The notes below the pieces were generated by a model. The model was not told where the DNA came from and did no database searches. It worked only from the letters and a program-made list of their open reading frames with translations. The position numbers were made by a program, and so were the translations under genes. Positions 7,982-14,543 of a stretch of DNA of 27,790 bases are shown piece after piece (position 1 is the stretch's first letter; each line of letters opens with the position of its first letter). Source of the stretch: a virus. The stretch is taken from the IMG/VR virus record IMGVR_UViG_3300045996_004584, positions 1 to 27,790 of that record. One strand, written 5' to 3'.

Positions 7982-8027
7982 TTGATCCCTGCCGGCTCCG
8001 CCCGGCGCGCCCACAAGGAGAAAATTG

Positions 8028-8477
8028 ATGGGTTCCACTACCGCGGCGGGCTCGGCGCTCGCCATCGGCGCCACTGCGCCGGCTACGATGGATGCAGCAG
8101 GCTTTGCTGCTCTCACGTTGACTGAAATCGGCTCACTCGAAAAAATCGGCACCCTCGGCGCGTCGTTCGCGAAGGTCGAGTTCACGCCGCTGAAGGGCGC
8201 CAAGGACAAGCACAAGGGTTCGCCCGATTACGGCTCGCTTCAGCCTTCGATGGCATTCGACTCCACCGACGCCGGTCAGGTGCTGCTGCGCACCGCCGCC
8301 GATGACGCGACGTCGAAGCTGTACCCGTTCCTCGTCACCCTGCCGACGGGGGACAAGCGGTATTTCATGGGTCGCGTCTTCGGCAACCCGGAGACGGTGG
8401 ACGGCGCCGACTCCATCGTCATGGCGGCGCCGACGATCGAGGTCTGCACCAAGCCCGTGAAGGTCGCCGCTACCTGA
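8028..8477 (+). CDS. Major tail (tube) protein
   Basis: I choose ATG 8028 over the adjacent upstream TTG because AAGGAG lies at a good distance (8015-8020). The 149-residue product matches compact siphovirus tail-tube proteins: an N-terminal Ala-rich arm, then FAALTLTEIGSLEKIGTLGASFAKVEFTPL, described by position (residues 26-55), where the 'w..i.gv.sigs.g....vid.t.L' pattern is typical, followed by LVTLPTGDKRYFMGRVFGN and an end with APTIEVCTKPVKVAAT ('.....v.l.isg.pt.v'). Such proteins polymerise as hexamer rings around the tape measure. Position between the terminator and chaperone genes supports the call. Confidence 0.85.
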   Translation: MGSTTAAGSALAIGATAPATMDAAGFAALTLTEIGSLEKIGTLGASFAKVEFTPLKGAKDKHKGSPDYGSLQPSMAFDSTDAGQVLLRTAADDATSKLYPFLVTLPTGDKRYFMGRVFGNPETVDGADSIVMAAPTIEVCTKPVKVAAT

Positions 8478-8583: not shown

Positions 8584-8991
8584 ATGGACGCATCTACCCT
8601 GAAGGTGGCCGCGACGGCCGCCATCCACGTCAAGAACGCCGCAGGCGAGCCGCTGTACGACGACGGCAAGCCGGTTCGCATCATCGTGCACGGTCCCGGC
8701 AGCAAAGCCTATGCTACTGCCGCGGCGCGCCAGACTGCGCGCTCTCTCAAGCGCATGAACGACAATGAGGGCAAGATCACCGCGCCCACGGCCGAGGAAA
8801 GCATCGCCGAGGTCGCCGAGGATCTCGCCTCGGTCACGATCAGCTTCGAGAACCTGACCTATGGCGACAAGCAGGGCGCCGAGCTGTTCGATGCCTTTTA
8901 CCGCGATCCCGAGCTGGGCTACATCACCAAGCAGGTGAATAAGTTCATCGCTGACTGGGGAAACTTCAAAGCCGGCTCGACCGGCAGCTAA
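8584..8991 (+). CDS. Tail assembly chaperone, short form (G-like)
   Basis: This 135-residue protein occupies the position of lambda gpG, between tail tube and tape measure genes. It has a beta-rich N-terminal half (STLKVAATAAIHVKNAAGEP, 'v.....R.i...pgSka....') and a helical acidic C-terminal half (SIAEVAEDLASVTISFENLTY, then DAFYRDPELGYITKQVNKF). Chaperones of this type bind the tape measure protein and keep it soluble before the tube forms. The ATG at 8584 has an AAGGA ribosome site. Near its end the mRNA carries a -1 slippery heptamer at 8958-8964, so part of the ribosomes should continue into the next frame to give a longer form of about 279 residues. Confidence 0.85.
   Translation: MDASTLKVAATAAIHVKNAAGEPLYDDGKPVRIIVHGPGSKAYATAAARQTARSLKRMNDNEGKITAPTAEESIAEVAEDLASVTISFENLTYGDKQGAELFDAFYRDPELGYITKQVNKFIADWGNFKAGSTGS
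8958..8985 (+). promoter_or_regulatory. Programmed -1 ribosomal frameshift signal (G GGA AAC plus hairpin)
   Basis: The heptamer G GGA AAC (8958-8964) is in the correct X XXY YYZ phase of the upstream gene (TGG GGA AAC). After a 6-base spacer, GCCGG (8971-8975) pairs with CCGGC (8981-8985) around a 5-base loop. The -1 frame is open from 8955, just after a TGA at 8952-8954, through to 9422. Lambda uses G GGA AAG at the same place. Confidence 0.85.
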
Positions 8992-8999
8992 CCCTTTTC

Positions 9000-9422
9000 G
9001 TGCGGCAAATGGCGTGGCTTCACGCCACGCCAAAGCCGCCCGAAGGCACCAAGCGTGCCGAGAATACGAAGTCGGCAATCAAGCTTAGCCGGCACGATCA
9101 GATGAAGAAGGCCGGCATCACCCCGAAGATGCCACCCAACCCTATGCCGCACATGATCGAGCGGCTGGTCGAGATCGGCTTAACGGAGTCGAACGGCATG
9201 GGAGCGGTGCCGATCGGTTGGGCTACGATCGATGCGTGGCAACGCTGCACCGGGATCGAGCTAGATCCATGGGAAGCCAAGTTGCTGCGTCGCCTGTCCG
9301 CGGCATATGTGGTCGAGAGCCGCCGTGCCGAAGACGAAACCTGCTCACCGCCGTTCCACACCGGCCCCGATCGGCGTGAAGTCGAGACGGAGCATGCGCG
9401 CCTGATCGCATTGCTGGGCTGA
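9000..9422 (+). CDS. Tail assembly chaperone, -1 frame extension (T part of GT-like fusion)
   Basis: This frame is probably read as a continuation of the previous gene after a -1 shift at 8964, giving 127 residues of the G-like part plus 152 more. The only start codon near its beginning is a GTG at 9000 with no ribosome site, which argues against separate initiation. The sequence shows IERLVEIGLTESNGMGAVPIGWATIDAWQ (positions ~53-81 of the 140 residues from 9000), then ELDPWEAKLLRRLSAAYVVES. The pattern 'P.l.....eig....gmga.pi.W.ei..W....g..L..wE...l..LS.aY' is what I know from siphovirus tail assembly chaperones. The long form links the tape measure protein to tail tube subunits during assembly. 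Confidence 0.82.
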   Translation: MRQMAWLHATPKPPEGTKRAENTKSAIKLSRHDQMKKAGITPKMPPNPMPHMIERLVEIGLTESNGMGAVPIGWATIDAWQRCTGIELDPWEAKLLRRLSAAYVVESRRAEDETCSPPFHTGPDRREVETEHARLIALLG

Positions 9423-9424
9423 GC

Positions 9425-9456
9425 TTGGCAGATCCACAAACGCGCGTGTATCTAAT
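9425..9456 (+). promoter_or_regulatory. Possible promoter for the lipoprotein gene
   Basis: TTGGCA (9425-9430) resembles a -35 box, and TATCTA (9449-9454) or TCTAAT (9451-9456) could be the -10 box, with 18 or 20 bases between. It lies right after a tail gene and before a self-contained gene that ends in a strong terminator. The match is only moderate. Confidence 0.4.
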
Positions 9457-9478
9457 CTCCCCTGTTAGGGGATTGGAT

Positions 9479-9742
9479 ATGCGCGCGTTTGTCCTGGCTG
9501 GCCTGTTCATGGTGGCGGGCTGCTCGTCGGCCTCCGATCGCGCAGAGCGCGAGTATCAGATCGTCGTGGAGAACAAGGGCTCTGTCGCAGAGCGTTGCAG
9601 GGCCGCTCGTGCGGTGGCCGACGCATTTCTGAAAGAGCAGAACCAGCCCCGGCACAAGGAAGCCACAGCTCGCGCGAACATCGTTTGCGCGTCGAGCGAA
9701 GGCTCGTCCGAGTTCGCGCCGGAAAAGATCACCGCGCAGTAG
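9479..9742 (+). CDS. Small lipoprotein, probable moron gene
   Basis: I choose ATG 9479, after an AGGGG ribosome site, because the protein then begins with a lipoprotein signal peptide: RAFVLAGLFMVAGC, with the lipobox VAGC and Cys15 as the lipidated residue. An in-frame TTG at 9425 would bury that signal. The mature part (about 72 residues) has an acidic/basic helical section and a second and third Cys (ERCRAARAV, NIVCASSEG). I know no function. The gene interrupts the tail assembly block between chaperone and tape measure, has its own possible promoter and is followed by an intrinsic terminator, which is how morons (genes added to a phage and expressed in the lysogen) look. Envelope lipoproteins of other phages can block superinfection, but that role here is a guess. 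Confidence 0.75.
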   Translation: MRAFVLAGLFMVAGCSSASDRAEREYQIVVENKGSVAERCRAARAVADAFLKEQNQPRHKEATARANIVCASSEGSSEFAPEKITAQ

Positions 9743-9802
9743 ACCGTACCTAGCCGCGGGCCGCTCGGCCACGCAGCCTGAATTTCTAGTCGCATCTCCA
9801 CG

Positions 9803-9825
9803 GCCCCGCTTCGGCGGGGCTTTTT
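9803..9825 (+). terminator. Intrinsic terminator after the lipoprotein gene
   Basis: GCCCCGC (9803-9809) pairs with GCGGGGC (9814-9820) around a TTCG tetraloop closed by C-G, followed by TTTTTGC. This is a textbook strong terminator. It lies 18 bases upstream of the tape measure start, so transcription of the downstream tail and lysis genes must read through it or begin after it. Confidence 0.88.
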
Positions 9826-9842
9826 GCATTGGGAACGAACCG

Positions 9843-12800
9843 ATGGATGACGGTACGCCAGCACTTGAGGTCGGTTTCGGGATCGACACCGCTGGTGCCT
9901 TCGGTAGCCTGATCGGGCTCGACGGGAAGATCGACGAAACGGTCGCGAATGCGGTTCAAGAATTCGCGCGCGTCGAGGCCGCCACCAAGGGCGCCGTCAA
10001 TCTCGCGGGTGCCACTGCGCAGGTGACGTCTTTCGGCAATGCTGCAACGCGCGAGCTTGCCGCTGCCGCCCGCGCGAGCGCGAATGCTGAGAGGGCTGGT
10101 GAAGCGATGGTTCGCCAGCTTCAGCGCCAGACCGAGACGTTCGGTAAAACGGCATCCGAGATCCGCAACATGCGCGCCGAACAACGCGCCCTCAATGCCG
10201 AGCAGCGGGGCCTCACCGAGTTGGCTGGCCGTATTCGCGAACTGAACGCCGAGATGAACCGGCTTGAAGCCGCCTCTGGAGGAACCACCAATTCGCTCCA
10301 CGATCAGGCCACGGCGTCGGGTGCCGCCAAGGCTGGATACCAGCAATTGAATTTCCAGCTGTCCGACATCGCTACCCAGTATTCTCTGGGCGCCAAGCCG
10401 ATGCAGATCTTCGCTGCGCAGTCCGGGCAGTTGTTTCAGGCGCTCGGTATGATCGCGCAGGGTGGCGCGCAGGCCGGGAAGGGTGCGCAAGCCGCCGCGG
10501 ACGCGGCGAAGGATGCTGGTGCCGACGTCGAGGGGCTCGGCGAACAGGCGGCTGCGGTCGCAGAGAAGGCCGAGGGAATGGGCGGCAAGCTGGGCGCCGT
10601 CGCCACCTTTATGACGGGGCCGTGGGGCGCTGCGGTGCTGATCGGCGTGTCGGTCCTGACGCCGTTCGTCGCAAAGCTGTTCGAGGGCAACAGAGCCCTC
10701 GACGATGCGGTCGACAAGCTGAAGAAGGATGCCGAGGCGACCGAAATCAGCCGTCAGGCGAACGAGCGCTTCAGGACGACTGCCGAGGGCGTGGCAGCTG
10801 CGATCCGCGACGGCACTGAGGCGACCAAGGCGGCGATCGCGGCGCAACGAACGTCCGCCGAGCAGGCGAATAGCAATGCTCAGGCCAATCTGGCGCAGGA
10901 AATCGCCATCCGTCGCGCCACGTTGGCAGAGATCGAGCGCGTGAAGACGCTCGCTGAAAACGTCACGCCCTCCGGTCCCGGTGGCGCCGACTCCGCGGCG
11001 CGCATCATTTATCTTCAGCGGGTCGCAGAGCTGCAAAAGCAGGCGAAGGAACAGGCTGACCTTATCCAACAGGCCGAGGCGCGCCTTGGGCAGACTCGCA
11101 TCGATCTCGCGACCGATGCGGCGAAGCGGGCGACGGACGCGACGCTGCGGATCAACAGGCAATACGACGCCGAGGCAGCGCGCTTGCAGGCCGTGGCACG
11201 TGCCGAGGGTACTGTCACAATCGCGCGCGCAAACCGGCTGGCGAACGAACTGGCCGCGAACGAGCGAGCCCGGAAAGCGGCGCTCGACGCCGAGCAGGAC
11301 AAGCAACAGGCCGTGAAGAAGACGGCGCAAGTCGGTCGAGAAGTGGACCTAGCTGAAGCGCGCCGCATCGCTCAGAGCATTGGCGCCCGGATCACCAGCG
11401 AGAAGCGGTCCTACGCCGAGCAAAAGGCGCTGTACGACAAGTACGTGGCGTACAAGGCTGGCCGAGGACCATGGGCAGCGCTCGCCGCGGCTCCGGGCAC
11501 CAGCGATCATGAGCGGGGGAACGCCCTCGACATCGCCAAGACGCCGGGAATGTCCCTCGGGAAGATCCGCGAGGCGTTCCGCGCAGCCGGCGTGTCGATC
11601 AAGCAGCTGCTCGACGAGGGCAGTCACTTCCACGTCTCGTGGAAGAAAGGCGCAGACAGCGCCGCTGCCGCGTCGAAGAAGCTCGCAGACGTTCAGGCCG
11701 ACCTGGCCAAGAAGTTCGACCCGGCCGAGGCCGCGGCAATCGAGTACCGTGCGGCACTAAAAAGCATCGCCGACGCCAAGCTCGATCCCGCGACTGCGAA
11801 GCGCTACGCCGAGGAGGCCGCCGAGGCGTTCCGCAAGGCGCGCGCCGCCGCGTTCGAGCTGCCGAGCATGGCCGGTATCGCCGCGCAGGCTGACAGCGAC
11901 AAGGCGTCCGAGAAGTCGGCTGAGGATTTCCGCCGCAATGTGCTCCAGCCGCTCAAGGACGAGATCGCCTTGCATGGCCTCGTTGGCGCCGCGCGCGAAA
12001 CCGCAGCGCTCGCCCTTGAGCGCGAAAGCTTCCTCGCGGCCAACATGGATCAAGGCATCACGATCGCGATGCAGCGGTGGCAGGAGTATTACGCTCTCAA
12101 AAAGCAGCTGATCGATAAGGATGCCGCCGCGGACGCGCAGGAGATCGCAATCCGGCGTGCGACCGATCGGCTTGACGAAATGGTAGAAAGCGCACGCCGC
12201 GTCGGCGACGCGCTGTCGCGTTCATTCGGCCGAGGCGGCGCCGCGATCGCCGACGCCGTCGACGCGCTCGGCTTCTACATGCAGCAGCAAGACGAGCTGA
12301 AGCGCCGCAACCTCGGCGAGGCGAAGACGGCGCGCGAATCCGCGCGGCTTCAGGTCGGACTGTATGGCGATATGGCGGAGGCCGCGAAGGGCTTCTTCGG
12401 CGAGAAGAGCAAGGGCTATCAGGCGATGCTCGCGGCGGAGAAGGTGTTCCGCGCCTTCGAGTTCGCGATGTCCGTTCGCGCGATGGTGCAGGACGTCGCC
12501 GAGACCCTTTCGTCGGTCGCGAACAGCGGAGCACGCGCGACCGCGGCGGGAGCCGAAGGCATCGCGACGCAATCGAAGCTGCCCTTTCCGTTCAACATCG
12601 CTGCAATGGCCGCGACCGGTGCCGCGCTGGTGGCGGCCGGCATCGCCCTGCTCGGATCTGGCGGTGGCGCGGGGAGCAAGCCGGCGCCGACGAACTCGGG
12701 CACCGGCACGGTGTTCGGCGACCCCTCGGCGAAGAGCGAGAGCATCAAGAATTCGATCGATGCTCTGAAGGACGTCGATACCCTGACCAATACCTATGCG

Positions 12801-14543
12801 CGTCAGATGGCCTCTTCGCTGCGCTCGATCGAGAACCAGATCGGCGGCATCGCCAACCTCGTCGTGCGCGCCGGGGACATCAGCGCCTCGGCCGGCGTGA
12901 CCGAGGGGTTCAAGACGAACCTTATCGGATCGGTGCTCAGCAAGATCCCGCTTATCGGCGGCATCCTCGGCGGGCTGTTCGGTTCTACGACCACGGTCAC
13001 CGGTAGCGGGCTGTACGCCGGGGCGCAGTCGCTGGGCGGCATTCTCAACGGAGGCTTCGACGCGTCCTATTACAGCGACATCACGAAGAAATCGAAGTTC
13101 CTCGGCATCACCACGGGCACGAAGAACTCGACGCAGTACAGCGCGGCCGATGGCGCGCTTGAGACGCAATTCACGCTGCTGCTTCGCCAGTTCAACGACG
13201 CGATTGTCGCGGCGGCCGGTCCGCTTGGAGCGGCCACGGCCGACATTCAGAACCGGCTCAACAGCTTCGTCGTCAACATCGGCAAAATCGACCTCAAGGG
13301 GCTGACAGGCCAAGAGATCCAAGAGAAGCTGTCGGCCGTTTTCGGTGCTGCTGCCGACAGCATGGCAAATGCGGCCTTCCCCGGAATCGCGCAGTTCCAG
13401 AAGGTCGGCGAGGGCGCCTTCGAGACGCTGGTGCGGGTCGCGTCGACGATCGAGGCGGTAGGCAACTCGCTCGATATGCTCGGCCAAAGCGCCGTCGGGA
13501 TGGGCGTCGCCGCGAAGCTGGGGCTTGTCGATCAGTTCGAGAGCATCTCTGCGCTCACCGACGCGGCGGAGGCGTATTTTCAGGCCTATTACACCGATGC
13601 CGAGCAAGCGGCGGCGAAGACTGCCCAGCTGAGCCGCGTCTTCACGAGCATGGGCCTCGCCATGCCCTCGACGCTCGCGGGCTTCCGGCAACTGGTCGAG
13701 GCGCAGGATCTGACGACGGCCGCGGGGCAGGAGATCTACGCGACGCTGCTGAAGCTCGCGCCCGCGTTCGCCGATCTCAAGGAAGCGATGGAGGGCGCCA
13801 AGAGCGCGGCCGACATCGCGAGCGAGCGTTCCGACCTTGAGCGGCAGATGCTTGAGCTTCAGGGCAACACGGCCGCGTTGCGCGCGATGCAGCTGGCGAA
13901 ACTCGATGATAGCAACCGCGAGCTGCAACAGCAGATCTGGAACCTTCAGGACGCGCAGGAGGCGGCACGCGCCGCCGAAGAGCTGCGGCAGGCGTGGACC
14001 TCGGTCGGCGACGGCATCATGGACGAGGTGAAGCGCATTCGGGGCCTCTCGGGCGTCAACACCGAAGGCGGGTTCGCCTCGCTCATGGGCCAGTTCAACG
14101 CGGCCACGGCGGCGGCGCGTGCCGGCGATCAGGATGCTGCGAAGAGCCTTCCCCAGCTGTCGCAGGCTTTGCTCTCTGCCGCGGCGGACGCCGCGACAAG
14201 TCGGCAGGAACTTGCCCGCATTCAGGCGCAGACCGCGGCGAGCCTTGAGGCAACCTACGGCGTGATCGGGCAGCTGGGAACGACCGCGGCCGCCACGTCG
14301 ACCGCGGCACTGCTTGCCGCGGCCGGGGCGACGCAAACGCCTTCGGCCGCGGGCAATGACAACACGACATCCGGCCTCCTGGCCGCGATCGACGAGTTGC
14401 GAGAGGAAGTCGCCCAGCTGCGCGCCGAGAACAACGTCGGCCACGCCGCCAATGCGAGCGCGAACAACCGGACCGCGAAGGTGCTCGAGAACGTCACTCA
14501 GCAAAGCGGCGGGGATGCTCTTTCGACGGTGCAAGCGGCATGA
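9843..14543 (+). CDS. Tail tape measure protein with internal M15-type peptidase
   Basis: At 1566 residues this is the longest gene, located after the chaperone pair as expected. It sets tail length and is ejected with the DNA. Residues ~60-150 and 330-490 are long Ala/Arg/Glu helices; a hydrophobic segment is near residues 256-282 (WGAAVLIGVSVLTPFVAKLF). Residues ~503-605 form a metallopeptidase of the VanY/D-Ala-D-Ala carboxypeptidase type: SDHERGNALDI supplies His556 and Asp563, and SHFHV supplies His595/His597, which fits the zinc-binding H-x6-D...H-x-H arrangement. Residues ~780-950 look like a conserved tape-measure core ending in a hydrophobic Gly/Ala stretch (IAAMAATGAALVAAGIALLG). 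The C-terminal 400 residues are helical with coiled-coil character. The peptidase may cut peptidoglycan cross-links so the tail can cross the wall. The stop overlaps the next start by four bases (ATGA). Confidence 0.92.
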   Translation: MDDGTPALEVGFGIDTAGAFGSLIGLDGKIDETVANAVQEFARVEAATKGAVNLAGATAQVTSFGNAATRELAAAARASANAERAGEAMVRQLQRQTETFGKTASEIRNMRAEQRALNAEQRGLTELAGRIRELNAEMNRLEAASGGTTNSLHDQATASGAAKAGYQQLNFQLSDIATQYSLGAKPMQIFAAQSGQLFQALGMIAQGGAQAGKGAQAAADAAKDAGADVEGLGEQAAAVAEKAEGMGGKLGAVATFMTGPWGAAVLIGVSVLTPFVAKLFEGNRALDDAVDKLKKDAEATEISRQANERFRTTAEGVAAAIRDGTEATKAAIAAQRTSAEQANSNAQANLAQEIAIRRATLAEIERVKTLAENVTPSGPGGADSAARIIYLQRVAELQKQAKEQADLIQQAEARLGQTRIDLATDAAKRATDATLRINRQYDAEAARLQAVARAEGTVTIARANRLANELAANERARKAALDAEQDKQQAVKKTAQVGREVDLAEARRIAQSIGARITSEKRSYAEQKALYDKYVAYKAGRGPWAALAAAPGTSDHERGNALDIAKTPGMSLGKIREAFRAAGVSIKQLLDEGSHFHVSWKKGADSAAAASKKLADVQADLAKKFDPAEAAAIEYRAALKSIADAKLDPATAKRYAEEAAEAFRKARAAAFELPSMAGIAAQADSDKASEKSAEDFRRNVLQPLKDEIALHGLVGAARETAALALERESFLAANMDQGITIAMQRWQEYYALKKQLIDKDAAADAQEIAIRRATDRLDEMVESARRVGDALSRSFGRGGAAIADAVDALGFYMQQQDELKRRNLGEAKTARESARLQVGLYGDMAEAAKGFFGEKSKGYQAMLAAEKVFRAFEFAMSVRAMVQDVAETLSSVANSGARATAAGAEGIATQSKLPFPFNIAAMAATGAALVAAGIALLGSGGGAGSKPAPTNSGTGTVFGDPSAKSESIKNSIDALKDVDTLTNTYARQMASSLRSIENQIGGIANLVVRAGDISASAGVTEGFKTNLIGSVLSKIPLIGGILGGLFGSTTTVTGSGLYAGAQSLGGILNGGFDASYYSDITKKSKFLGITTGTKNSTQYSAADGALETQFTLLLRQFNDAIVAAAGPLGAATADIQNRLNSFVVNIGKIDLKGLTGQEIQEKLSAVFGAAADSMANAAFPGIAQFQKVGEGAFETLVRVASTIEAVGNSLDMLGQSAVGMGVAAKLGLVDQFESISALTDAAEAYFQAYYTDAEQAAAKTAQLSRVFTSMGLAMPSTLAGFRQLVEAQDLTTAAGQEIYATLLKLAPAFADLKEAMEGAKSAADIASERSDLERQMLELQGNTAALRAMQLAKLDDSNRELQQQIWNLQDAQEAARAAEELRQAWTSVGDGIMDEVKRIRGLSGVNTEGGFASLMGQFNAATAAARAGDQDAAKSLPQLSQALLSAAADAATSRQELARIQAQTAASLEATYGVIGQLGTTAAATSTAALLAAAGATQTPSAAGNDNTTSGLLAAIDELREEVAQLRAENNVGHAANASANNRTAKVLENVTQQSGGDALSTVQAA

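Follow-up and report, generated by a model that had tools for sequence, protein, structure and literature searches.

In bacteriophage lambda, the tail assembly chaperones G and GT are expressed from two overlapping reading frames by a programmed −1 frameshift (Xu, Hendrix and Duda 2004, reviewed in PMC5009743), and this G/GT frameshift has been conserved across a wide range of long-tailed phages (PMC5009743). The lambda genes lie between those for the major tail protein and the tape measure protein, and the sequence GGGAAA stands in phase near the end of G, followed by the −1 extension. The slippery heptamer GGGAAAC has been predicted in the tail chaperone genes of Caulobacter phage Colossus (PMC3556154), Burkholderia phage KL1 (PMC3483164), and the haloarchaeal virus HCTV-1 (PMC5009743). 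These three viruses have other hosts than the relatives of the locus described here, and are likened to it by their heptamer and not by sequence kinship. The second slip codon influences the outcome in Escherichia coli, where AAG shifts more than AAC (A_AAA_AAG compared with A_AAA_AAC; PMC5009743). Stimulators built from two RNA hairpins are described for IS elements: the IS3411-type apical loop–internal loop (ALIL) stimulators combine a proximal stem-loop with a second one located 44–104 nt downstream (Mazauric 2008, in PMC5009743), and the two-hairpin stimulators of IS elements need pairing between the loops (PMC5009743).

The locus studied here lies in IMG/VR virus record IMGVR_UViG_3300045996_004584, the 27,790 bases of which were analyzed as a whole and are referred to below as the window. 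The window carries an HK97-type head module (portal, PF04860; capsid, PF05065; and an HK97-gp10-like protein), and in the tail region its genes are ordered major tail protein, G, GT, tape measure. Directly 3′ of the gene for the major tail protein (8025–8477; phrog_158), the plus strand encodes ORF1 (8584–8991, ending with TAA at 8989–8991), a putative G-like tail assembly chaperone of 135 residues. The −1 frame, hereafter ORF2, is bounded upstream by a TGA at 8952–8954, is open from 8955 and stops at 9420–9422; its T-like extension comprises the 152 codons 8964–9419. The tape measure gene follows on the same strand at 9843–14543 and encodes a protein of 1,566 residues (phrog_7740, E 8e-60), the presumed client of the chaperones. 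The layout is thus that of lambda in its gene order, its in-phase GGGAAA near the end of G, and its −1 extension. It departs from lambda in the last base of the heptamer (C instead of G), in the distance from the heptamer to the end of the stop codon (27 nt, compared with 18 in lambda), and in having a small lipoprotein-like gene between T and the tape measure gene, an arrangement that recalls the extra gene before the tape measure gene of KL1 (PMC3483164). Family searches with the proteins of the window returned neither the lambda G nor the lambda T family.

An initial annotation had interpreted this locus as a lambda-like −1 frameshift, with G GGA AAC in the correct phase near the end of the G-like gene, a 6-base spacer followed by a GCCGG/CCGGC hairpin, and a −1 frame open from three bases before the heptamer to 9422. 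All of these elements are there. The heptamer occupies 8958–8964 of the plus strand and, checked base by base, is read in ORF1 as TGG-GGA-AAC; the spacer TTCAAA (8965–8970) and the proximal hairpin (8971–8985) follow, and the −1 frame is open over 8955–9422. Only two in-phase XXXYYYZ sites occur among the 5,369 codons of the ORFs in the window, one of them being this heptamer, and about 0.004 would be expected by chance in an overlap of 12 codons. Because such sites are rare, chance explains the heptamer poorly, even without counting the relatives. The same scan applied to lambda returns GGGAAAG. Synonymous sites are more constrained in the overlap (O/E over 7 codons rising to about 2) and fall to an O/E of about 1 further 3′. 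The A-site codon of the window is AAC, the less shift-prone choice in the E. coli comparison.

We consider it very probable that ORF1 and ORF2 constitute an expression unit of the lambda G/GT type that uses −1 ribosomal frameshifting. Most ribosomes would read ORF1 to the TAA at 8989 and produce the 135-residue chaperone G. We infer that a minority, with GGA in the P site and AAC in the A site, would slip back by one base to GGG and AAA, probably aided in the phage of the window by the hairpin 6 nt downstream, and would continue in the −1 frame to 9422. The predicted product is a GT fusion of 279 residues (127 + 152), for which the junction previously anticipated, ...DWGN-LQSRLD..., is correct. 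By analogy with lambda, G and GT may then coat the tape measure protein, with the T part recruiting the major tail protein.

The protein families are consistent with these roles. The T part matches the Pfam family PF23812 (Phage_TAC_18) with 28.8 bits against a cutoff of 27, the same family is found in 19 of 19 members scanned (E 0.01), and ORF2 also matches phrog_18915 and phrog_4966. A structural model of T (pLDDT 84) begins with one continuous helix, residues 2–20, and among the structures that it matches weakly are named long-form tape measure chaperones. ORF1 matched no Pfam family and gave no tblastn match among annotated phages; a plasmid search was likewise without a match, and a Foldseek search of the PDB with the ORF1 model returned nothing significant. 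Upon realignment of this AlphaFold model (pLDDT 84), the joint best matches were the HK97 tail assembly chaperone 2ob9 and YqbN (3klu), at Z 5.2 each, with the next unrelated structure at Z 3.5. A Z of 5.2 lies below 8 and is modest, as is the alignment with 2ob9 itself (96 residues, 12% identity), but the predicted fold is suggestive of a tail assembly chaperone for the G part as well.

Scans that used the T and G parts as queries yielded a first round of 49 related loci, with ORF1 identities of up to 73%. Those that come from cells lie in Sphingobium and Sphingomonas genomes and are presumably prophages. The −1 relation of the two frames is kept in all 49, and the tblastn homology of the T part starts no more than a few codons from the last base of the heptamer. 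In 47 of the 49, GGGAAA is present with C, G, or T as the next base. The expectation that the heptamer would be conserved in homologues therefore holds for GGGAAAN in these loci, and the remaining two carry other slippery heptamers: GGGAAA is lost and replaced, within 3–6 nt, by A AAT TTT in L033 (GGCAAATTTT) and by T TTT TTG in L036 (GGGCAATTTTTTG). In L037, judged against the protein alignment, GGGAAA sits three codons further downstream. Of 39 unique loci, comprising the window and 38 relatives, 37 use GGA as the glycine codon of the slip site, whereas GGA accounts for 2.2% of the glycine codons elsewhere in the same ORF1s; this contrast is descriptive and carries no formal probability, since the loci are related. 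Diverged relatives thus share the heptamer, the −1 relation, and the start of homology at the shift point, and together with the gene order this supports the lambda-like reading. An assembly error or a pseudogene, i.e. a single ORF broken by a false or a real frameshift mutation, is refuted by dozens of phages and prophages, each sequenced separately, in which the same −1 arrangement and heptamer recur, and we give it next to no credence.

Extending the search to 398 genomes from the Sphingobium family showed how the slip site varies. GGGAAAC is present in L063–L066 and L068. In a sister clade, A AAT TTT occurs in L069 and L071–L076, and A AAT TTC in L078, giving eight A AAT TTY loci. Two loci, L034 (3384–3393) and L079 (1483–1492), contain GGGAAATTT, in which an in-phase G GGA AAT and an A AAT TTY overlap; these double heptamers are plausible intermediates between the GGGAAAN and A AAT TTY classes. 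In the annotated phages, the heptamer is A AAT TTT in those of Acinetobacter and Salicola and G GGA AAG in a Mannheimia phage. We also looked for homologues lacking the slippery site and carrying both frames as separately initiated genes, the observation that the initial annotation had named as contrary to its reading, and most homologues without GGGAAA have another slippery heptamer. Strict XXXYYYZ heptamers are missing from the sister-clade loci L070 and L077, which have only CATTTTAC or GAATTTTAC, and from the examined Vibrio phages, which have T TTT at the same place; all of these nevertheless keep the −1 overlap, as do the Acinetobacter, Salicola, and Mannheimia phages. A tree of the T parts, many forks of which are unresolved, requires at least eight changes of site class. 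As judged from these alignments, slipperiness outlasts the particular letters of the heptamer in this chaperone family. The same observation bears on a fusion produced by transcriptional slippage of the polymerase. The slip site does contain GGGG and AAA runs, but at lengths of 4 and 3 these are short for slippage by a polymerase, and the relatives retain the XXXYYYZ phase pattern rather than run length, moving to A AAT TTT or T TTT TTG, which makes slippage at the level of transcription exceedingly improbable.

The proximal hairpin, with a stem of 5 bp and a loop of 5 nt (GCCGG-CTCGA-CCGGC), has a predicted energy of −9.3 kcal/mol (z −1.4 relative to shuffled sequences). Across the relatives, stems beginning 4–9 nt past the heptamer have a mean score of 6.6, compared with 2.8 (sd 1.2) at 197 control offsets, none of which scores as high. 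Two registers alternate between lineages, a GCCGG-5-CCGGC type and a GCCGCC-TCGAA-GGCGGC type; 51.6% of the cells are paired in the register of the window and 63% in the alternative one, which rules out a strictly conserved structure, and 5 of 23 representatives (L003, L035, L036, L037, and L042) lack a perfect stem. The hairpin previously described as part of the signal is thus present in the window, while its exact form is specific to a lineage. We regard it as a likely, though not invariant, stimulator of the frameshift.

Could T instead be translated on its own? Two codons lie close enough to the end of ORF1 to be considered, the annotatable GTG at 9000–9002, which begins 9 nt past the last base of the stop codon, and the ATG at 9009, which begins 18 nt past it and is found in most relatives. 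ORF2 would then be an independent gene, started at either codon alone or by termination–reinitiation after the stop at 8989–8991. The initial annotation had noted the lack of a ribosome site at the GTG, and indeed the anti-Shine-Dalgarno energies are −2.0 kcal/mol for GTG 9000 and −1.8 kcal/mol for ATG 9009, which amounts to almost no Shine-Dalgarno sequence, compared with −6.5 for ORF1, −8.3 for the major tail gene, and −8.2 kcal/mol for the capsid gene. L003 and L004 score better for the GTG on paper, owing to a GGGA-type stretch that lies well over 10 nt upstream and is therefore too far away for normal use. In many relatives GTC or a different codon stands in place of the GTG; the ATG, although the commoner alternative start of the two, is absent from several and is an unlikely start. 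Moreover, homology of the T protein starts 12 codons upstream of GTG 9000, initiation there would truncate helix 2–20 of the T model, and both codons lie in or beside a conserved stem-loop (see below). An independent start would also leave the conservation of the heptamer without a reason. Separate initiation of ORF2 is therefore very unlikely, and the frameshift remains the preferred reading.

The initial annotation had missed a second and better conserved stem-loop. This two-tier structure at 9002–9039 of the plus strand, with an outer helix (9002–9006/9035–9039), an inner helix (9010–9018/9024–9032), and a loop at 9019–9023, is the strongest structure near the slip site and begins 38 nt past the heptamer. 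In the alignment, 95.7% of the cells are paired in the inner helix (8 pairs counted) and 86% in the outer helix. Changes on both sides of a pair occur in 26 cells, compared with 12.2 after shuffling (counted over the whole tested structure, proximal helix included), for example in L042 (GGGATGGC/GCCGTCCC) and L043 (GGCATGGC/GCCGTGCC), and three pair types are found at 9002–9039. Randomization of synonymous codons gives a mean per-sequence z of −2.8, compared with −0.9 to 0.1 for control stretches. At the stem wobble bases 9005, 9014, 9026, 9029, and 9038, conservation exceeds expectation 1.8–2.4 fold, with the lysine wobble 9035 as an exception among the stem wobbles, whereas the unpaired wobbles of the stem-loop are not conserved and the synonymous sites in the rest of T are near saturation (O/E about 1). 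An O/E of at least 1.6 is seen for 5 of 6 paired codons compared with 8 of 93 other codons (Fisher p 1e-4, for sequences that are not fully independent). The synonymous randomization and the restriction of wobble conservation to paired bases disfavor the hairpin being a mere by-product of the amino acid sequence. A DNA palindrome is possible, but RNA fits better given the G–U pairs in the stems.

The distal hairpin recurs in the same register in the Salicola phage L055 (GGGGTGGA-TGCAC-TCTACCCC) and in a shifted position in Acinetobacter phages. Its presence in all Phage_TAC_18 phages is unsupported, several Vibrio phages being without it and the z scores there being weak. Rfam contains no match to the window, our literature search found no such RNA element reported for tail chaperone genes, and no mention of a distal stem-loop was found in those parts of the accounts of Colossus, KL1, and HCTV-1 that deal with their heptamers. 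The combination of the proximal hairpin with 9002–9039 resembles the IS3411-type layout, with a distance of 38 nt here. However, the loop pairing of the IS3411-type ALIL has no conserved counterpart here: 4-nt complementarity between the loops of the proximal and distal stem-loops is found in at most 9 of 38 rows, which speaks against an ALIL or another loop–loop pseudoknot.

A structure that starts 38 nt past the heptamer is too far away for direct contact with a ribosome at the slip site. A ribosome that terminates at 8991 should, however, lie directly next to it, and the two candidate start codons of T, GTG 9000 and ATG 9009, fall within the structure or at its edge. On these grounds a lock on the start sites, or an influence on frameshifting by an indirect route, seems to us more likely than a classical stimulator. 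We put forward only tentatively the possibility that 9002–9039 serves this chaperone family as a conserved, functional RNA element, either as a remote component of the frameshift signal or as a lock that hides GTG 9000 and ATG 9009 from ribosomes that have just terminated at 8991.

The interval from the T part to the tape measure gene holds an ORF from 9425 in which a small lipoprotein is predicted at 9479–9742 (MRAFVLAGLFMVAGC-SS...). It looks like a moron, and a role in superinfection exclusion is a guess. Similar short lipoprotein ORFs occupy the same slot in L031 and L034, and an unrelated-looking one is found there in L037. A long inverted repeat at 9436–9492, with 25-nt arms that are 84% complementary and a 7-nt loop, spans the start of the lipoprotein ORF and scored as terminator-like, and a second terminator-like sequence at 9802–9826 (GGCCCCGC-TTCG-GCGGGGCT, then TTTTG) lies just 5′ of the tape measure gene, so that the lipoprotein gene appears to be bordered by terminator-like signals. 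Vibrio phages have a minus-strand gene in this position (L051, 2958–3236; L054, 2947–3423; L060, 3033–3458), and the slot may therefore be an insertion hotspot. The tape measure protein itself contains an embedded VanY-like D-Ala-D-Ala carboxypeptidase domain at residues 512–580 (PF02557, E 2.9e-6).

The frameshift pair of the window is thus an ordinary case of an already known mechanism, accompanied by one unexplained RNA element. The mechanism is textbook and its presence here was expected, and the G GGA AAC variant, which had been put forward as a useful natural example and is indeed present, is not new, having been published for Colossus, KL1, and HCTV-1. The value of the locus is comparative: slipperiness appears to be retained while the letters turn over, one group having G GGA AAC/G where its sister group has A AAT TTY, and the overlapping heptamers of L034 and L079 hint at how one heptamer could hand over to another without loss of the fusion. 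The distal structure, visible through wobble conservation and compensatory changes, can be tested with synonymous mutants, and if it does act as a lock, T would be produced only as a fusion.
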